A stretch of 64,000 bases of DNA from contig JACOUH010000133.1 in the NCBI GenBank assembly GCA_016177925.1, positions 1-64,000 on the forward strand. The letters are read 5' to 3'. This document shows positions 2,561 to 49,426 of the stretch, piece after piece. The position numbers were made by a program, and so were the translations under genes. The first letter of the stretch is position 1; each line of letters opens with the position of its first letter. The notes beneath the pieces are model-generated. The model was not told where the DNA came from and ran no database searches. It was given only the letters and a program-made list of their open reading frames with translations. Origin of the DNA: Planctomycetota bacterium. Its GTDB lineage: Bacteria; Planctomycetota; Planctomycetia; Gemmatales; Gemmataceae.

Positions 2561-2972
2561 CCACCCGATGCTGACCGCGTTTGGAATGGTTTCGCCGGTC
2601 GCGCTGGTGCCGTCGGCGAAGGGCCCACCCCACGTTGGCGCGACGGGCTGGCTGTTCCATCTCGATGCGCCAAACTTGCTGCTGACGAGCCTGCGTCCTG
2701 CGCCGGGCGGCGCCGATGGTGTGGTGGCACGGCTGGTAGAGGTCGGCAACCACAGCGGCCACTCGGAAATGCGCTGCGTGCGCGACCCGCAGCAAGTCCG
2801 CCAGGTGAACGCTCGCGGCGAGGTGCTGGCTGAGCTGGGCTACTCGGGCGACACGGTCTATCTCGACGTCGCCGAGGGGGAGCTGCTGCACCTGCGCATC
2901 GACTTCACCCGCGAGGAGGTGCCCGAGGAGCCTTCCGCTGACGTGGCACCCGAAGAAGCCACCTTCGATTGA
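2487..2972 (+). CDS. C-terminal part of the frameshifted GH38-like protein
   Basis: This frame holds the natural continuation of the upstream gene. It begins CHGGRMLDVILVPEGEQQQT and continues as a beta-sandwich-like tail ending EEVPEEPSADVAPEE. The ATG at 2487 has no convincing ribosome binding site and lies inside the coding overlap, so independent translation is unlikely. The join between the two frames falls at about 2470-2480. From memory of the family, the linking stretch between RDERAVL and the HGGRMLD motif seems shorter than usual, so a small deletion rather than a single-base slip is possible. It ends 21 bases before the MarR start. It could be a true mutation or an assembly error. 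Confidence 0.6.
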   Translation: MLDVILVPEGEQQQTFDLAIGLDRDHPMLTAFGMVSPVALVPSAKGPPHVGATGWLFHLDAPNLLLTSLRPAPGGADGVVARLVEVGNHSGHSEMRCVRDPQQVRQVNARGEVLAELGYSGDTVYLDVAEGELLHLRIDFTREEVPEEPSADVAPEEATFD

Positions 2973-2993
2973 CAGGGGCGATCGGCCGAAGCG

Positions 2994-3521
2994 ATGAGCA
3001 CGACCCCGGGGGACTCACGCGAGCAGCGTTTCGATTCGCTGGAGCAGGAAGCGTTCCTGAACCTCTGGCGGACGTACGACCGCATGCGCGCCATCGAGCA
3101 GGACTTGTTCGGGCGCTACGACCTGACGCCACAGCAGTACAACGCGCTGCGGCTGCTGCGGGCGGCACGACAGCGGCTCGGCGGCAAGTGGCCGGGACGG
3201 TTGGCAACGCTCGACCTGGCTTCGCGTCTCGTGTCGCGCGCCCCCGACATTACGCGCCTGCTCGACCCGTTAGAGCGACGCGGCCTGGTCGAGCGCGACC
3301 GTCCTGCCCACAACCGCCGTGTCGTCTGTGTCGGCATCACGGAGGCTGGCCTGGACCTACTGCGGGAGTTGGGCGAGCAGGTCCGCGCCTGTCACGCCCG
3401 TCAGTTCGGCCACCTGTCGGAGAAAGAACTGCGCGACCTGATCGTCCTGCTCCGCGCCGCCCGTCGACCGCACGAGGAGCCGGACAGCGCCTGGCTCGAC
3501 TCCGGCGAGCGGGGGGTGTGA
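2994..3521 (+). CDS. MarR-family transcriptional regulator
   Basis: A 175-residue winged-helix DNA-binding protein. The pattern is that of MarR: an N-terminal dimerisation helix (EAFLNLWRTYDRMRAIEQDL), LTPQQYNALRLLR, a recognition region (DLASRLVSRAPDITRLLDPL), then the wing (ERRGLVERDRPAHNRRVVCV) and a C-terminal helix. The ligand is unknown. Its last residues (GERGV) and its TGA stop are encoded by the left arm of a 61-bp palindrome (3504-3564), so the natural C-terminus was probably replaced when the palindrome arrived; the hairpin may also end transcription. It lies directly downstream of the GH38-like gene and upstream of two YfhO-type membrane proteins, which it might control. Confidence 0.85.
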   Translation: MSTTPGDSREQRFDSLEQEAFLNLWRTYDRMRAIEQDLFGRYDLTPQQYNALRLLRAARQRLGGKWPGRLATLDLASRLVSRAPDITRLLDPLERRGLVERDRPAHNRRVVCVGITEAGLDLLRELGEQVRACHARQFGHLSEKELRDLIVLLRAARRPHEEPDSAWLDSGERGV

Positions 3522-6072: not shown

Positions 6073-8454
6073 ATGTCGGCCACCGTTCGCGTGCTGCTCA
6101 TCCTCCCTGTGATGACGGTCTCCTTCTTCTCCCCCTTGGTGTACCACCCGGGACAGGTCCTTTACTCCGACCACTCGGACCTGTTGGCGGAGCACATCCC
6201 GGCGAAGCGGTTCCTGGTGCGGTCGTTCCAGGAGACAGGGGAATTGCCCTTATGGTGTCCGTGGCAGTTCGCCGGCACGCCGTTCGTCCATGACATCCAG
6301 GTGGCCATGTTCTACCCGCCGCACCTCGCCCTGTTGCTGGTGCCCGAGGACCAGGTCAGCTTCGCCGTCAGCTGGCTGGTTGTCCTCCACGTCCTGCTCG
6401 CCGGTTGGGCCATGTTCGCCTACACCTGCCACCGCGGCCTCTCTCCGCTCGGCGGAGCGGTCGCCGCGGTCGGCTACATGTTCGCCGGGCGCTGGATGAT
6501 GCACTTGCTGGGCGGGGGCCACTACATCACGATCGGCCTCGCCTGGCTGCCGCTCGTCCTGCTTTGTTTGGAGCGGGCCATCCGGTTGGGGAGTGTCGCC
6601 TGGGCCGTCGGAGCGGGGACCGCCTTCGCGCTGCTCACCCTCGCTACACAGCCGCAGTGGACCTTCTACGCGGGCCTGTTCGCCGCGGCGTGGACACTCG
6701 GCACGGTCCTCGAGGAGGCGAGCTTCCACGGTGGGACAAGGCGCGGGCTGCTGTGCTGGGCGGGGTACGGAGCGCTGGCCGTGGGACTGGCGCTGGCTCT
6801 GACTGCGATCCAGTTGCTGCCGACCCTCGAGGCAGCGGGGCAGTCGAGCCGCGCGGGCGGTGTCGGGACGGAGGCGATCCTCGAAGGTGGAGTGCGTGTC
6901 GTCCTCTTCCTCGTCGGCCCCGCCCTGACGGTCGAGCCCGCCAATCTGATGTGGGAGGACCGCGGCGGCCTAGCCCTGCTGTGGCTGTGTGCCGCCGTGC
7001 TCGCCCCGGTCCTCCGGAGCGGCCGGGTGCGCTACGAGGCGGCGGTCGGCGTCGGGCTGTTCTTGTTCGCCGCGGGTGGGGCGGTGCTGCTGCAACCGTT
7101 GCCCGGCTTCAACCTCTTCCGCCAGCCGGCCCGCATGATGGTGATCGCCTCCTTCCCGGTCGCCTGGCTCGCCGGTGTCTCGGCCCAGGCGCTGTTTCCC
7201 CCCGGCGGGCTGTCCGTGGAACAGCGGCGGCGCTGCCGCCGCTGGATGCTGCGCGTCGGCGCCGCGACCCTGCTGCTGTGCGGGGGCTTTGCCCTGCGCC
7301 AGCTCCTGCAAGGAGCGCCGCTCCGCTTCGACTTCTACTGGCTGTCGGCCCCCCTCCTGTTCGGTCTGGCGTTCCACCTGCTCGGTCGGGGGAGCCGCCC
7401 TTTCCTGCGCTGCCCGCCGGCGGCCGTCTGGGTGTTCCTGCTGGGGTTGGACCTGCTGGCGCTGGATAGTTCGCTGATCGGTGTGTGGCCCGAGCCAGAA
7501 CTCTACGACGTGCCACGGTGCGTGCGCTTCGTCGCCGAGAGGAGTGACGACCGGAGCCGAGTCCTGGAGGTGAACAACCAGGACGGGGGAGGACAGGCAG
7601 GGCCCCTGTGGACCGGCGCTGCGATGGCGCTAATCGGGCAGGTAGAAGCGGTGCGTGGCTACAGTCCGCTCGACGTGCTGCGTTATCGAGAGTTCCTGCA
7701 ATTCATCGCCGATCGCGACGACGCACTCGGCGCCCTGGACAGCACCTTTACCCACCCAGTGAGCGATAATTCCGATTTGAAAAATCGTTCTCTGCTGGAC
7801 CTGCTCGGTGTCCGCTACCTACTGCTGCCGGTCGGTGTAGATCCCCCAGGAGTCGGTTGGAAGGAGGTCAGCCGGCAGGATGAAGTCACCGTCTACGACT
7901 TCATCCTCGGCGGCTGGTGGAACGTGGGCGGGTACGTCGTCCACGAGAACGCGGCCGTCCTGCCCCGGGCGTTCGTCGTCCCTCATGCCGAGGGATTGCC
8001 GGAGGGGCCGGCCGTCCTGAGGACACTGAAGACAACGGACTTCCACCAGACGGTCCTGCTGGAGGACTACGATCCGCCCGCCGGGGCACCCGTGCCAGCG
8101 GGTCGCGGGGGCCAGCCGGGCACGGGGCACACGGTCCAGGTCCACTGCTACGAACCCAACCGCGTTGAGATGGAGGTGAAGGGCGCGGGTGGCTTCCTGG
8201 TGCTGACCGACGTCTGGTATCCCGGCTGGACCGCCACGGTCGACGGCGAGACGGTGCGCGCGTACCGGGCGAACTATGTCTTCCGGGCGGTCGAGGTGTC
8301 GGCCGGCCGGCACGAGGTGATCTTTCGTTTCGAGCCGGCCTCCTACCGGCGCGGCCGGCTGATGAGCCTGGGGACGCTCGCGGCGGTCGGGTTATTCGGA
8401 GTTGTCGTGCTGGTCCGGCGGCTTCGCTCGCGTTTTGGGGAGCGGGGGACGTGA
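6073..8454 (+). CDS. YfhO-type multi-spanning membrane protein (copy 2)
   Basis: About 793 residues, clearly a tandem duplicate of the preceding gene: the same SDLLAEHIPAKRFLVRSF, ELPLWCPWQFAGTPFVHD, GGGHYITIGLAWLPLVLLCL and FLVLTDVWYPGWTATVDGE blocks in the same order. The ATG at 6073 has GGAGG eight bases upstream; an ATG at 6058 overlaps the previous stop (TGATG) and is also possible. The two genes are surely co-transcribed. The substrate is unknown; polyprenyl-sugar-dependent envelope glycosylation is what is proposed for the family. Copy 2 lacks the palindrome seen in copy 1, which makes the pair a natural insertion/no-insertion comparison. Confidence 0.85.
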   Translation: MSATVRVLLILPVMTVSFFSPLVYHPGQVLYSDHSDLLAEHIPAKRFLVRSFQETGELPLWCPWQFAGTPFVHDIQVAMFYPPHLALLLVPEDQVSFAVSWLVVLHVLLAGWAMFAYTCHRGLSPLGGAVAAVGYMFAGRWMMHLLGGGHYITIGLAWLPLVLLCLERAIRLGSVAWAVGAGTAFALLTLATQPQWTFYAGLFAAAWTLGTVLEEASFHGGTRRGLLCWAGYGALAVGLALALTAIQLLPTLEAAGQSSRAGGVGTEAILEGGVRVVLFLVGPALTVEPANLMWEDRGGLALLWLCAAVLAPVLRSGRVRYEAAVGVGLFLFAAGGAVLLQPLPGFNLFRQPARMMVIASFPVAWLAGVSAQALFPPGGLSVEQRRRCRRWMLRVGAATLLLCGGFALRQLLQGAPLRFDFYWLSAPLLFGLAFHLLGRGSRPFLRCPPAAVWVFLLGLDLLALDSSLIGVWPEPELYDVPRCVRFVAERSDDRSRVLEVNNQDGGGQAGPLWTGAAMALIGQVEAVRGYSPLDVLRYREFLQFIADRDDALGALDSTFTHPVSDNSDLKNRSLLDLLGVRYLLLPVGVDPPGVGWKEVSRQDEVTVYDFILGGWWNVGGYVVHENAAVLPRAFVVPHAEGLPEGPAVLRTLKTTDFHQTVLLEDYDPPAGAPVPAGRGGQPGTGHTVQVHCYEPNRVEMEVKGAGGFLVLTDVWYPGWTATVDGETVRAYRANYVFRAVEVSAGRHEVIFRFEPASYRRGRLMSLGTLAAVGLFGVVVLVRRLRSRFGERGT

Positions 8455-45095: not shown

Positions 45096-46811
45096 ATGGC
45101 AGCGATCAACCACGCCCCCGGGACCTCCCCGAGTGATCGCAGCCGCGCCGTGCTGGAGTTGATTCACGGCTGGCTGAGCCAGCCAGGAGCGGAGCGTTCC
45201 TCCCTTGTCGACCTGGTCCGCGATTTGGCAGAGGCATTCGCCGCCAGCGCCGCCGGGGTCGCCGTCCTGACCGACGGCGCTGTGCTGGTGCGCGAGGCGG
45301 TCGGAGCCGGTCCGGAATCTCAAGGGGCCCTGCCGTGGGTTGAGCAGCCTGGGCTCCTGGCCGAAGTGCGCCGCAGCGTGTCGGCGCTCTCCGTGCCGTC
45401 GCGTCAGGGCCGGATGTTTTTGTGTACAGCCGTCCAACCGCGTGGGGCTTGCGGATGGCTCTTCTGGGTCGAGGCGGAGGCGGGTCGAACGTGGAGTCCC
45501 GCTGAGTCGGCGGCCCTGGCGCTGGCGGGACAGGCGGCTGTCCGCTGGCTGGAGGCACAAGACGCGGGGCCTGCGTGGGCTCATCAGCTGGAGCACGCCG
45601 CCCAGCAGCGCCGGCTCGAGGACGCCGCCGTGTGGACGCGGCGCCTGGCCCATGACTACGGCAACGTGTTAACCAGCATCCTCGGCTTCACCGAGCTGAG
45701 CCTGTCCCAGCTTTCCGACAGTTCCCCGCTCCGGCGTTACCTGAGCGAGGTCCACCGCGGGGCTCAGCAGGGGGCCCTTCTGACCGAGCGTCTGCGTCTG
45801 TTCGCGCGGCGGCCGGCGTCGTCGGGACAGGCCACGTTCCTGGGACACGTTCTCGCCCAGCAGCGGGAACGATTTGCGAACGAGGGCCCCGCTGTCGAAT
45901 TGCGGTTGGACCTCCCCGCCAACCTGCCGCCGGTGGCCCTCGGCTCGGACGCCTTGCAGGACGTCTTGGGGCCGCTGCTCGACAACGCCCGGGAGGCGAT
46001 CGCCCAGAAGGGTCGCGTGACGGTAACGGCACAGTTCGTGCAGCTATCCTCTGTTGACTGCCTTGCGCTGTGGGGCAGCCCCGGACCGGGCCCCCAGGTG
46101 TGCGTCGAGATCAGCGACACGGGTTGTGGCCTGACCGCCGACGCCGAGGCGAAACTGTTCCGCGAGCCGTTCTTTACGAACAAGCCGCGCCACCGCGGCC
46201 TCGGCCTGGCAACCGTCTATGGCGTGCTGGTGTCCAACCGCAGCGGTTTCGCCCTGCTGCCGGGCCCGCAGGGCGGCGTGATCGCCCGCGTGTACTTGCC
46301 CATCGCGGCAGGGGCCCTTCTCCCGGCGCGACCCGCTGGCGCGGGCGGGGCCCCTGCGCCAGCTCGGTGCCCTCCCGCGCCAGCGGGTCGCGCCGGCACG
46401 GAGGGGAAGATCCTCGTCGTTGATGACGACCCTGGTGTTCTGGAAATGGTCAGCGATACGCTCCGCCAGGTGGGCTATCGGGTGCAGACGGCCGCCAGCG
46501 CTGCCGAGGCGGTGGCGCTGGTTGGGGCCTCGCGGATGCAGCCGTTCAACCTGGTGCTGTCCGATATCGTCATGGAGCCGACCTCGGGCGTGGAACTCGC
46601 CCGCCAGCTGCTCTGCCGCGACGCCAACCTGCGTCTGCTGTTCATGAGCGGGGAGGTGTCGCAGGAATCCCTGCGGGGCGACCTTGGCGGGCAGCCGTTC
46701 GAGCTGCTGGCCAAGCCGTTCCGCGTCGACGGCCTGCTGCGGGCCGTGCATAAGGCACTGCAAGACCCGCCGCGGCCCGACCCGCTCGCGCGGGTGCCCT
46801 TGAAGACCTGA
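45096..46811 (+). CDS. Histidine kinase fused to a receiver domain
   Basis: 571 residues, cytoplasmic, no membrane helix. A GAF-like N-terminal sensor (about 25-170) precedes the HisKA helix with the phosphorylated His in RRLAHDYGNVLTSILGF (near 189), the ATPase domain (LLDNAREAIAQKG, ISDTGCGL, FFTNKPRHRGLGLATVYG) and a C-terminal receiver (KILVVDDDPGVLEMVSDTLR, LVLSDIVM, LLAKPFR). Residues 410-434 between ATPase and receiver (ARPAGAGGAPAPARCPPAPA) are encoded by a 74-bp palindrome, so a repeat forms the interdomain linker. GGAGG lies upstream of the ATG. Probably pairs with the next gene. Confidence 0.92.
   Translation: MAAINHAPGTSPSDRSRAVLELIHGWLSQPGAERSSLVDLVRDLAEAFAASAAGVAVLTDGAVLVREAVGAGPESQGALPWVEQPGLLAEVRRSVSALSVPSRQGRMFLCTAVQPRGACGWLFWVEAEAGRTWSPAESAALALAGQAAVRWLEAQDAGPAWAHQLEHAAQQRRLEDAAVWTRRLAHDYGNVLTSILGFTELSLSQLSDSSPLRRYLSEVHRGAQQGALLTERLRLFARRPASSGQATFLGHVLAQQRERFANEGPAVELRLDLPANLPPVALGSDALQDVLGPLLDNAREAIAQKGRVTVTAQFVQLSSVDCLALWGSPGPGPQVCVEISDTGCGLTADAEAKLFREPFFTNKPRHRGLGLATVYGVLVSNRSGFALLPGPQGGVIARVYLPIAAGALLPARPAGAGGAPAPARCPPAPAGRAGTEGKILVVDDDPGVLEMVSDTLRQVGYRVQTAASAAEAVALVGASRMQPFNLVLSDIVMEPTSGVELARQLLCRDANLRLLFMSGEVSQESLRGDLGGQPFELLAKPFRVDGLLRAVHKALQDPPRPDPLARVPLKT
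46323..46396. repeat. 74-bp palindrome encoding the kinase-receiver linker
   Basis: CCGGCGCGACCCGCTGGCGC plus GGG and its mirror around GCGGGGCCCCTGCGCCAGCT. It is read through in frame. Relatives are at 46895-47000 and, as half copies, near 46776 and 22568. Confidence 0.88.
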
Positions 46812-46854: not shown

Positions 46855-47655
46855 GTGAGTTTTCGCGTACCCAATAACGTCTCGACTGTGAACACGGCTC
46901 GACCCGCTCTCGCGGGTGCCCCGAATGCCCACGAGGCTCCGCTCGATAGCCGGGGCATCTGCGCCAACTCGGTGCCCTCCCGCGACAGCGGGTCGGGCCG
47001 GCCGCGCAACGCGGAGCCGGCGACCGAGTCTTCCGGCCTGTACTGCTCCGGCGAGGTGCGCATCCTCGTCCTGGATGACGACGACCAGGTCGGCCGCATG
47101 ATCCGCGAGGCGCTGGAGGGCAAGGGCTTTCACGTCGACGTCGTCTCCGACACGCGCCAGATCGGGGCGCAGCTGCGCCAGCAGCCGTACCACCTCATCA
47201 TTCTCGACTATGTGCTGCCGGGCCTCGACTCCGAGCAGGTGCTCGACTGGATCAAGGAGCATCAGGCCGACGCCAGCATCATCGTGGTGACGGCGTACCC
47301 GTCGGTCGACAGCGCCCTGAGCTGCCTGCGGGCGCGCACCTACGACTACCTGACCAAGCCGTTCCAGATCACGCACCTGCAAGGGGTGGTGACGCGCTGC
47401 CTGGAGAGCAAGGGCCTGCTGCGACTGTCGGAGGACGCTCTGAAAGTGGCCCTGGGGGCTGCGATCCGCGAACGCCGCAAGGGCCTCGGCCTGACGCTGG
47501 CCCAGATGGCGCAGCGGACCAGCGTGTCGCTGGGTTACCTGTCGCAGATCGAACTGGGCAAGAACTCGGCGTCGATCGAGACGCTCTACCGCATCTCGCT
47601 GGGACTTGGCATCCGCATGAGCGATCTGTTCCAGGCGGTGCAGGCCGCGCTGTAG
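46855..47655 (+). CDS. Response regulator with receiver and XRE-type DNA-binding domains
   Basis: 266 residues. The GTG at 46855 has AAGGAG upstream. Residues 14-49 (RPALAGAPNAHEAPLDSRGI) are encoded by a palindromic repeat. The receiver spans about 66-185 (RILVLDDDDQVGRMIREALE, phospho-Asp in LIILDYVLPG, VVTAYPS, YLTKPFQ). The C-terminal domain is an XRE-type helix-turn-helix (GLTLAQMAQRTSVSLGYLSQ then IELGKNSASIETLYRISLGL). Receiver plus XRE is a less usual pairing than OmpR, NarL or NtrC types. Likely output partner of the kinase 43 bases upstream. Confidence 0.92.
   Translation: MSFRVPNNVSTVNTARPALAGAPNAHEAPLDSRGICANSVPSRDSGSGRPRNAEPATESSGLYCSGEVRILVLDDDDQVGRMIREALEGKGFHVDVVSDTRQIGAQLRQQPYHLIILDYVLPGLDSEQVLDWIKEHQADASIIVVTAYPSVDSALSCLRARTYDYLTKPFQITHLQGVVTRCLESKGLLRLSEDALKVALGAAIRERRKGLGLTLAQMAQRTSVSLGYLSQIELGKNSASIETLYRISLGLGIRMSDLFQAVQAAL
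46895..47000. repeat. Palindromic repeat at the 5' end of the response regulator gene
   Basis: CGGCTCGACCCGCTCTCGCG plus GGTGCC at the left, complementary CCCGCGACAGCGGGTCGGGC plus CG at the right, with a longer spacer. Read in frame as residues 14-49. Confidence 0.8.
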
Positions 47656-47675: not shown

Positions 47676-47749
47676 GGCGAGCGGGGTCCGTAATGACCCC
47701 GGTTTGCTGCTGGTTGTTCGTACCGGGGTCATTACGGACCCCGCTCGCC
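47676..47749. repeat. 74-bp palindrome, GGCGAGCGGGGTCCGTAATG family
   Basis: Arms GGCGAGCGGGGTCCGTAATG plus ACCCCGG, spacer TTTGCTGCTGGTTGTTCGTA. It shares the GGCGAGCGGGG tip with the family at 3504. It lies between the convergent response regulator and selD genes. Confidence 0.92.
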
Positions 47750-47751
47750 AG

Positions 47752-47796: not shown

Positions 47797-47881
47797 AAAG
47801 GACCTCCCCAGGCGAGGAGTCCTCTCCTTGTCTCGAAAGGAGAGACGTCCGAGGGGAAGCGATTATTCACGGCGATTCGCC

Positions 47882-47926
47882 TTGCCGCTTGCGGCTTAGC
47901 ATCCCGTGCTAAGCCGCAAGCGGCAA
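47882..47926. repeat. 45-bp palindrome, CCGCTTGCGGCTTAG family
   Basis: TTGCCGCTTGCGGCTTAGCA and its mirror around TCCCG, two bases from the selD stop codon. It matches the copy at 43036-43095. Confidence 0.9.
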
Positions 47927-47927
47927 A

Positions 47928-48992
47928 TCACGGCCGGAGCAGGAGAGCCAGCCCGGGACGCGGTCGCTCGAGCACCTCGCCAATGATGCAGGTTCGGCTC
48001 GCGCTGCGCTTGCGGGCCGCCTCGACGAGGACGTCGGCTTTCTCGGCCTCGATACTCACCAGTAAGCCGCCCGACGTCTGGGCGTCGTAGAAGACCTCCA
48101 GCCGCACCGGATCGGGCTTGCCCTCGACTTGCAGGCCATCGGCGACATACTCGCGGTTGGTGGCACTGGCCCGCGTCAGGTGTCGGCGCTGGACGAGCGG
48201 CTCGACGTCGGGCAAGAGCGGCAAACGCGACAGGTCGATCGCCAGCGTCACGCCGCTGCCCTCGGCCATCTCGAAGGCGTGGCCGGCGAGGCCGAAACCC
48301 GTCACGTCGGTGACGGAGTGAGCGCCGCCGACCTCGACGACGGCGGCGCGGCCGATGGCGTTCAACTGCACCATGCTGGCACAGGCGGCCTCGAGCGTCT
48401 CTTCGGGACAGTCGTTGGCCTTGTGGGCAGTGGTGACGAAGCCGGTGCCAAGCGGCTTGGTCAGCACGAGCCGATCGCCCGGGCGGGCGGTGGCGTTGGT
48501 CCAGATCTTTTGCGGGTGGACAAGGCCGGTCACGGACAGACCGAACTTGATCTCGGCATCGCGCACCGTGTGCCCGCCCAGGACGACGGCGCCGGCCTCC
48601 GTGCAGCGCTCGGCCCCGCCGCGCAGGATCTCGCCGAGCCAGTCGAGGCTGAGCTTATCGTCGGGGTAGCCGACGAGGTTGAGGGCGGTCTTCGGGATAC
48701 CGCCCATCGCGTAGACGTCGGACAGCGCATTCGCCGCGGCAATCTGCCCGTAGACAAACGGGTCGTTGACCACCGGCGGAAAGAAGTCGAGCGTCTGGAC
48801 GAGGGCGATCTCGTCGGTCAGCCGATAGACGCCGGCGTCGTCGTGCGTCTCGGTGCCGACAAGCAGGTTGGGGTCGTTCAGGCGGGTGATGTTGCGCAAG
48901 ACTTGCGCAATGCCCTGCGGGGGCAATTTGCCCGCTCAGCCGGCGCAGGAGGCGTAATCGATCAAACGTTTCTTGCGGCCGAAGAAGAGCAT
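47928..48992 (-). CDS. selD: Selenide, water dikinase, itself a selenoprotein (Sec19)
   Basis: Reading through one in-frame TGA gives a 354-residue SelD. ATG at 48992 has AAAGGA seven bases upstream; the N-terminus reads MLFFGRKKRLIDYASCAG-U-AGKLPPQGIAQ, where the TGA at 48938-48936 sits exactly at the active-site Cys/Sec position of SelD and C16 is the partner Cys. ATP-binding features follow (THDDAGVYRL, TLDFFPPVVNDPFVYGQIAA, GGHTVRDAEIKFGLSVTG, FYDAQTSGGLL). It makes selenophosphate from selenide and ATP for Sec-tRNA. Straight ORF calling begins after the TGA at 48926. A hairpin-forming stretch just after the TGA (GCGGGCAAATTGCCCCCGC) could be the bacterial SECIS. Ends in a terminator at 47752. 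Confidence 0.93.
48917..48938 (-). promoter_or_regulatory. Candidate bacterial SECIS element of selD
   Basis: On the minus strand TGA is followed at once by GCGGGCAAATTGCCCCCGC, which can pair GCGGG with CCCGC, and inside it GGGCAA with TTGCCC. A stem-loop right after the UGA is what SelB needs in bacteria. Confidence 0.6.
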
Positions 48993-49083: not shown

Positions 49084-49323
49084 TTACTTGTTCGCGCGAG
49101 CCTCGAGGGTGTCGACCACCCACTGCTCGTCGGGGAACGTACCGGTTTCGAGCTTCGAGTAGACCAGCTTGCCGTTGACGGTCACCTCGAAGCACCCGCC
49201 GCTGGATGGGATCAATTCGAGAGCCTTGATCTTCTGCTTGAAGTTAGTCAACAGTGTGGACGTCAAACTGACGGCCTTCGGTTCGTAGCCTCACATCGAG
49301 CAATACTTGATTGCCACCTTCAT
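49084..49323 (-). CDS. SelW-like (Rdx family) selenoprotein with CxxU motif
   Basis: A 79-residue protein when the TGA at 49293-49291 is read as selenocysteine: MKVAIKYCSM-U-GYEPKAVSLTSTLLTNF, then KALELIPSSGGCFEVTVNGK, YSKLETGTFPDEQWVVDTLE. The CxxU pair (C8, U11) at the end of the first strand and the later GGCFEV and G-x-F-P segments are those of Rdx/SelW proteins, thiol-redox proteins of thioredoxin-like fold. ATG at 49323 has AAAGGAGAGG upstream. It lies 91 bases upstream of selD on the same strand, so the two are likely one operon. Ordinary ORF calling finds only the part after the TGA. Confidence 0.9.
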
Positions 49324-49426
49324 GGCCTCTCCTTTGTCGGAAAAAGAGGACCGTGTCCCCCTCTCCCTCATGGTAGCGGCGCCGACTCGGCGCAACAAGA
49401 CCCGCCCCGTTCCACCCCGCCCGCCC

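Follow-up and report, generated by a model that had tools for sequence, protein, structure and literature searches.

A predicted SelW-like selenoprotein gene beside selD in a Gemmataceae-type planctomycete, with relatives that carry a UxxU motif

A 64,000-nucleotide stretch of planctomycete DNA (hereafter, the window) contains, next to selD, a gene that almost certainly encodes a bacterial SelW-like selenoprotein, in which the UGA at codon 11 would be read as selenocysteine (Sec) and which is probably carried on one transcript with selD. We infer Sec insertion itself, co-transcription and a redox role from computed features, namely the reading frame, homology, the conserved TGA, a covarying hairpin, the Sec machinery, the predicted fold and the selW–selD gene order. 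A SelW-like selenoprotein beside selD had been proposed by a first-pass annotation of the same DNA, and family, CxxU motif, Sec TGA of selD, covarying SECIS-type hairpin and full Sec machinery all agree with that proposal; its coordinates, 49084–49323, were correct, and the strand, which it left unstated, is minus (Table 1).

Table 1 Features of the selW–selD locus and of the UxxU relatives
Feature	Position	Strand	Description
selW-like gene (Rdx family)	49084..49323	-	79 codons; redox motif CxxU = C8-S9-M10-U11
selW-like Sec codon TGA	49291..49293	-	codon 11; TGA in 106/107 distinct homologues compared
Ribosome binding site AAAGGAGAGG	49326..49335	-	read from sequence
selW-like SECIS-type hairpin	49258..49276	-	GGCCGUC-AGUUU-GACGUCC, one C.U mismatch; pentaloop starts 21 nt after TGA
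selD, selenophosphate synthase, Sec-containing (ASCAG-U-AGK)	47928..48992	-	TIGR00476 2.8e-112
selD Sec codon TGA	48936..48938	-	codon 19; most selD relatives above 60% identity also have TGA
selD SECIS-type hairpin	48892..48910	-	UUGCGCA-AGUCU-UGCGCAA; pentaloop starts 32 nt after TGA
UxxU loci	G036/L129:3001-3237; G037/L026 and L218; G066/L152:3001-3237		two in-frame TGA, one shared SECIS-type hairpin

Reading frame, family and predicted fold

Translated with TGA as Sec, the minus strand from 49323 to 49084 reads MKVAIKYCSMUGYEPKAVSLTS...EARANK*, a product of 79 residues with a single in-frame TGA and a TAA stop. The complete Rdx protein claimed by the annotation is borne out by this translation and by matches above cut-off to PF10262 (Rdx; E = 1.7e-22, 79.8 bits, cut-off 22.6) and TIGR02174 (SelT/SelW/SelH; 2.2e-21, 75.9 bits, cut-off 34.2). 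The CxxU hallmark on which the annotation relied is formed by the in-frame TGA and placed after strand 1, and the ribosome site that it had seen, AAAGGAGAGG, lies two bases ahead of the ATG at 49323. Because of the Rdx match and the in-frame-TGA homologues found in most genomes of the family, the SelW-like reading of this stretch is, as judged from sequence, far beyond chance. Under the standard code the locus yields only a 60-residue ORF, which starts at a TTG at 49266 and loses the CxxU motif, and standard gene calling would miss or shorten the gene. The window copy is the sole Rdx gene found in its genome.

An AlphaFold model built with a 31-sequence alignment (pLDDT 91.7) adopts the thioredoxin-like fold of SelW type, with the predicted order strand-helix-strand-strand-strand-helix and the CxxU motif following strand 1. 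Foldseek aligned this model at a TM score of about 0.9 with the SelW-related crystal structures 2obk, 2fa8 and 2p0g, and its matches also included 3dex and mouse SelW (2npb, TM 0.70).

Conservation of the TGA and the covarying hairpin

Homologues in sister genomes with a true stop at this codon and no conservation upstream had been named in the annotation as evidence that would count against Sec; we found the opposite, as codons 1–10, which lie 5′ of the TGA, are conserved across homologues and the TGA is almost invariant. The conservation of these ten codons indicates that translation passes through the TGA. A homology search with the Sec-containing translation, which the annotation had recommended, recovered selW-like homologues from 75 of 95 family genomes, and nearly all of these have a single in-frame TGA. 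Matches, again mostly with one TGA, were obtained from 146 of 397 genomes at the class level and 47 of 392 at the phylum level; named relatives include Gemmata, other Gemmataceae, Pirellulaceae and further Planctomycetota, and beyond the phylum homologues occur in Poribacteria, Acidobacteriota, Verrucomicrobiota, Gemmatimonadota and Bacillota. The 107 distinct genes that we compared comprise 103 with CxxU, three with UxxU and one with CxxC.

Sec has been lost in the CxxC gene (L184:3001-3234), which retains a recognisable hairpin, and in a CxxG gene (L213, genome G005). Some family genomes (L085, L086, L093, L094, L095, L097) encode a divergent second SelW-like selenoprotein with the motif YCTSUGYR, and these genes have their own compensated hairpin, for example GCCACC-AGUUU-GGUGG.

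SECIS prediction downstream of the TGA, likewise recommended, gave a covarying hairpin at a permitted distance. Its family consensus, GCCGUC-AGUUU-GACGGC, starts directly after codon 16 and places the loop 21 nt past the TGA. Across 40 diverse sequences the five pairs are formed in 89% of cells, three of them with changes on both sides, and the covariation score is 0.200 versus 0.130 ± 0.009 for shuffled alignments, with none of 500 shuffles reaching it; sliding the partner strand lowers the score to 0.104 or less, and a 101-sequence alignment gives the same picture. The loops are mostly AGUUU, AGUCU and GGUCU, plus a few others. Codon choice follows the same element: Ser19 is encoded by AGT in 92 of the 94 genes with Ser at this residue, whereas at other positions of those genes AGT accounts for just 30 of 438 Ser codons, and the codons for Ala17 and Val18 are almost confined to stem-forming ones. 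In the window, a hairpin of the SECIS kind stands behind only 2% of TGA triplets.

The published bSECIS rules call for a loop of 3–9 nt with G in the first two positions, a stem of 4–16 bp, a distance of 16–37 nt from the UGA and an MFE of −7.5 or below (PMC13188914). The selW-like hairpin agrees with them in spacing, loop G, stem length and, barely, free energy (−7.5 kcal/mol, just at the limit). Folded alone, the window hairpin, whose stem has one mismatch, is not unusually stable compared with shuffles (z −0.85, 31 nt), so the case for a SECIS is carried by the covariation. An Rfam scan of the whole window returned no match.

The selD neighbour, Sec machinery and alternative readings

The annotation had argued that Sec codons in two neighbouring genes strengthen each other as real, and selD, 91 nt downstream of the selW-like gene on the same strand, does have an in-frame TGA at codon 19 with a hairpin behind it, in keeping with a SelD equivalog (TIGR00476) that carries Sec at the catalytic position. 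Most selD relatives have an RGUNY-loop hairpin at a fixed 32 nt from the TGA, of the same class as the selW-like hairpin, and the selD hairpin also fits the published bSECIS rules. The aligned, covarying SECIS elements of the two genes could be used to find further ones.

In this Gemmataceae-type family the genes for SelW-like protein and Sec-containing SelD form a conserved pair: in 29 family genomes, including that of the window, selW and selD share a contig and a strand and are no more than about 250 nt apart. The largest genus group (g7) has a more distant form of selD, located elsewhere. A terminator-like site between the two window genes was looked for and not found; gene order and the lack of an intervening terminator suggest that they are probably co-transcribed. 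Within our incomplete coverage of the literature we found no paper describing the pair, the GOS survey giving only Prx/SelW neighbours (PMC2398784), and the adjacency in 29 family genomes appears to be less known.

Two long inverted repeats (window about 47677–47750 and 47880–47930) lie between the end of selD and a regulator gene at 46855–47655. A palindromic repeat, GACCCGCTNNNGCGGGTGCCC, occurs in the window at 46779–46799, 46901–46921 and 8084–8104, the copies at 46779 and 46901 being within predicted genes; it is found at 220 places in the genome, versus 4 for a reversed control.

The genome of the window, that of a Gemmataceae-type planctomycete (assembly 83% complete, 484 contigs), contains selA, selB, selD and tRNA-Sec(UCA). 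The genes selA (2e-173) and selB (over cut-off) lie side by side on one contig, and there are two distinct tRNA-Sec(UCA) genes, both over cut-off. These two (L001:1501-1594 and L002:1501-1594; G000 C322 and C15) show compensating differences in the D and acceptor stems; two tRNA-Sec genes are likewise present in G001 and G052, and other genomes are known to have several with compensating changes (PMC5330540).

An in-frame TGA might also mark a decayed Cys form, in which TGC had turned into a nonsense codon and left a pseudogene, and one relative (G087) is truly frameshifted. The TGA, however, is present in 106 of 107 distinct genes from many genera and several phyla, coding sequence is conserved on both sides of it and it is the Cys form that is rare, being confined to L184; the conservation of the TGA already refutes decay, to which we assign almost no probability. 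We are just as reluctant to take the 60-residue ORF from TTG 49266 for the true product and the similarity upstream for incidental, although this ORF is what the standard code yields: strand 1 and CxxU lie upstream of it, conserved together with M1, Y7 and C8, the ribosome site precedes ATG 49323, and the TTG itself falls within the conserved hairpin. As for the residue inserted, recoding of the UGA as Trp or Cys, or low-level readthrough without Sec, has no sequence evidence in its favour and is highly improbable: the genome has selA, selB, selD and tRNA-Sec, selD and many homologues end in TGA as an ordinary stop, and the covarying hairpin belongs to the SelB-binding type.

Under the preferred reading as Sec, a ribosome starting at ATG 49323 would meet the UGA at codon 11, SelB and Sec-tRNA(UCA) would bind the hairpin with its AGUUU pentaloop 21 nt downstream, and Sec would be inserted in place of termination. 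The product would be a 79-residue oxidoreductase of thioredoxin-like fold in which strand 1 ends with CxxU, and this motif may form a selenenyl-sulfide and act in thiol-dependent reduction, a role taken from the family. SelD, a Sec protein too, would supply selenophosphate for both products.

UxxU relatives and comparison with known selenoproteins

The UxxU motif occurs in three species of two lineages. G036 and G037, which belong to one genus, have YUAMUGYE, codons 8 and 11 both being TGA, and G066 has YUSMUGYE; both lineages have CxxU sisters, G038 and G039 in the first genus and G062 in that of G066. The first UGA of these genes is 30 nt from the loop, inside the allowed 16–37. It is likely that they encode a SelW-like UxxU form with two Sec, in which two UGA codons 9 nt apart depend on one SECIS hairpin and the two residues possibly form a diselenide centre. 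Between G036 and G037 about 15% of sites differ (about 85% DNA identity), and dN 0.076 and dS 0.51 reflect purifying selection on the selW-like gene. Because two species so far diverged share the double TGA under such selection, decay and sequencing error are both unlikely sources of it in G036 and G037; in G066 a sequencing error may be the source.

Compared with G062 (L152 versus L137, around 2867–3030), the G066 gene is identical in DNA after codon 11 over the stretch compared, but its first nine codons and the intergenic DNA over about 125 nt ahead of them differ; the comparison suggests that its 5′ end may derive from another allele by recombination. A tree based on few columns separates the two UxxU groups and implies a total of three state changes. 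Outside the family, two genes listed with two TGA (G139 and G588) had their terminal stop counted and are not UxxU, and in another order of the class only single-TGA selW-like genes were found. The presence of UxxU in two lineages, each with CxxU sisters, suggests that a working redox motif can acquire a second Sec codon. Together with their close CxxU sisters, the UxxU relatives offer a natural comparison for the role of a second selenium in a redox motif, and they also bear on the decoding of two UGA codons through a single SECIS.

Sec-containing SelD is a well-known selenoprotein (PMC1794560), and the window copy shows nothing different. Reviews catalogue SELENOW-like proteins as CxxU with one Sec and give UxxU for other families only (PMC13188914, PMC9312934), and the double-Sec UxxU form of SelW-like protein is apparently undescribed. 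The known UxxU families (Prx-like thiol:disulfide oxidoreductase, putative mercuric reductase/metal-binding protein and FmdB-like regulator) are other protein families; the G036, G037 and G066 variants resemble them in having two Sec in one redox motif, whereas the window gene itself is CxxU. SelW-like proteins are among the most abundant selenoproteins of ocean metagenomes (PMC2398784), and the window gene is a further example of this already known bacterial CxxU family: it shares the domain (PF10262/TIGR02174) and the CxxU motif with Sec at the second position, and its predicted fold lies within about 1 Å of bacterial SELENOW-like members over 69–78 columns. It differs from that family in adjoining a Sec-containing selD and in having relatives some of which carry UxxU.
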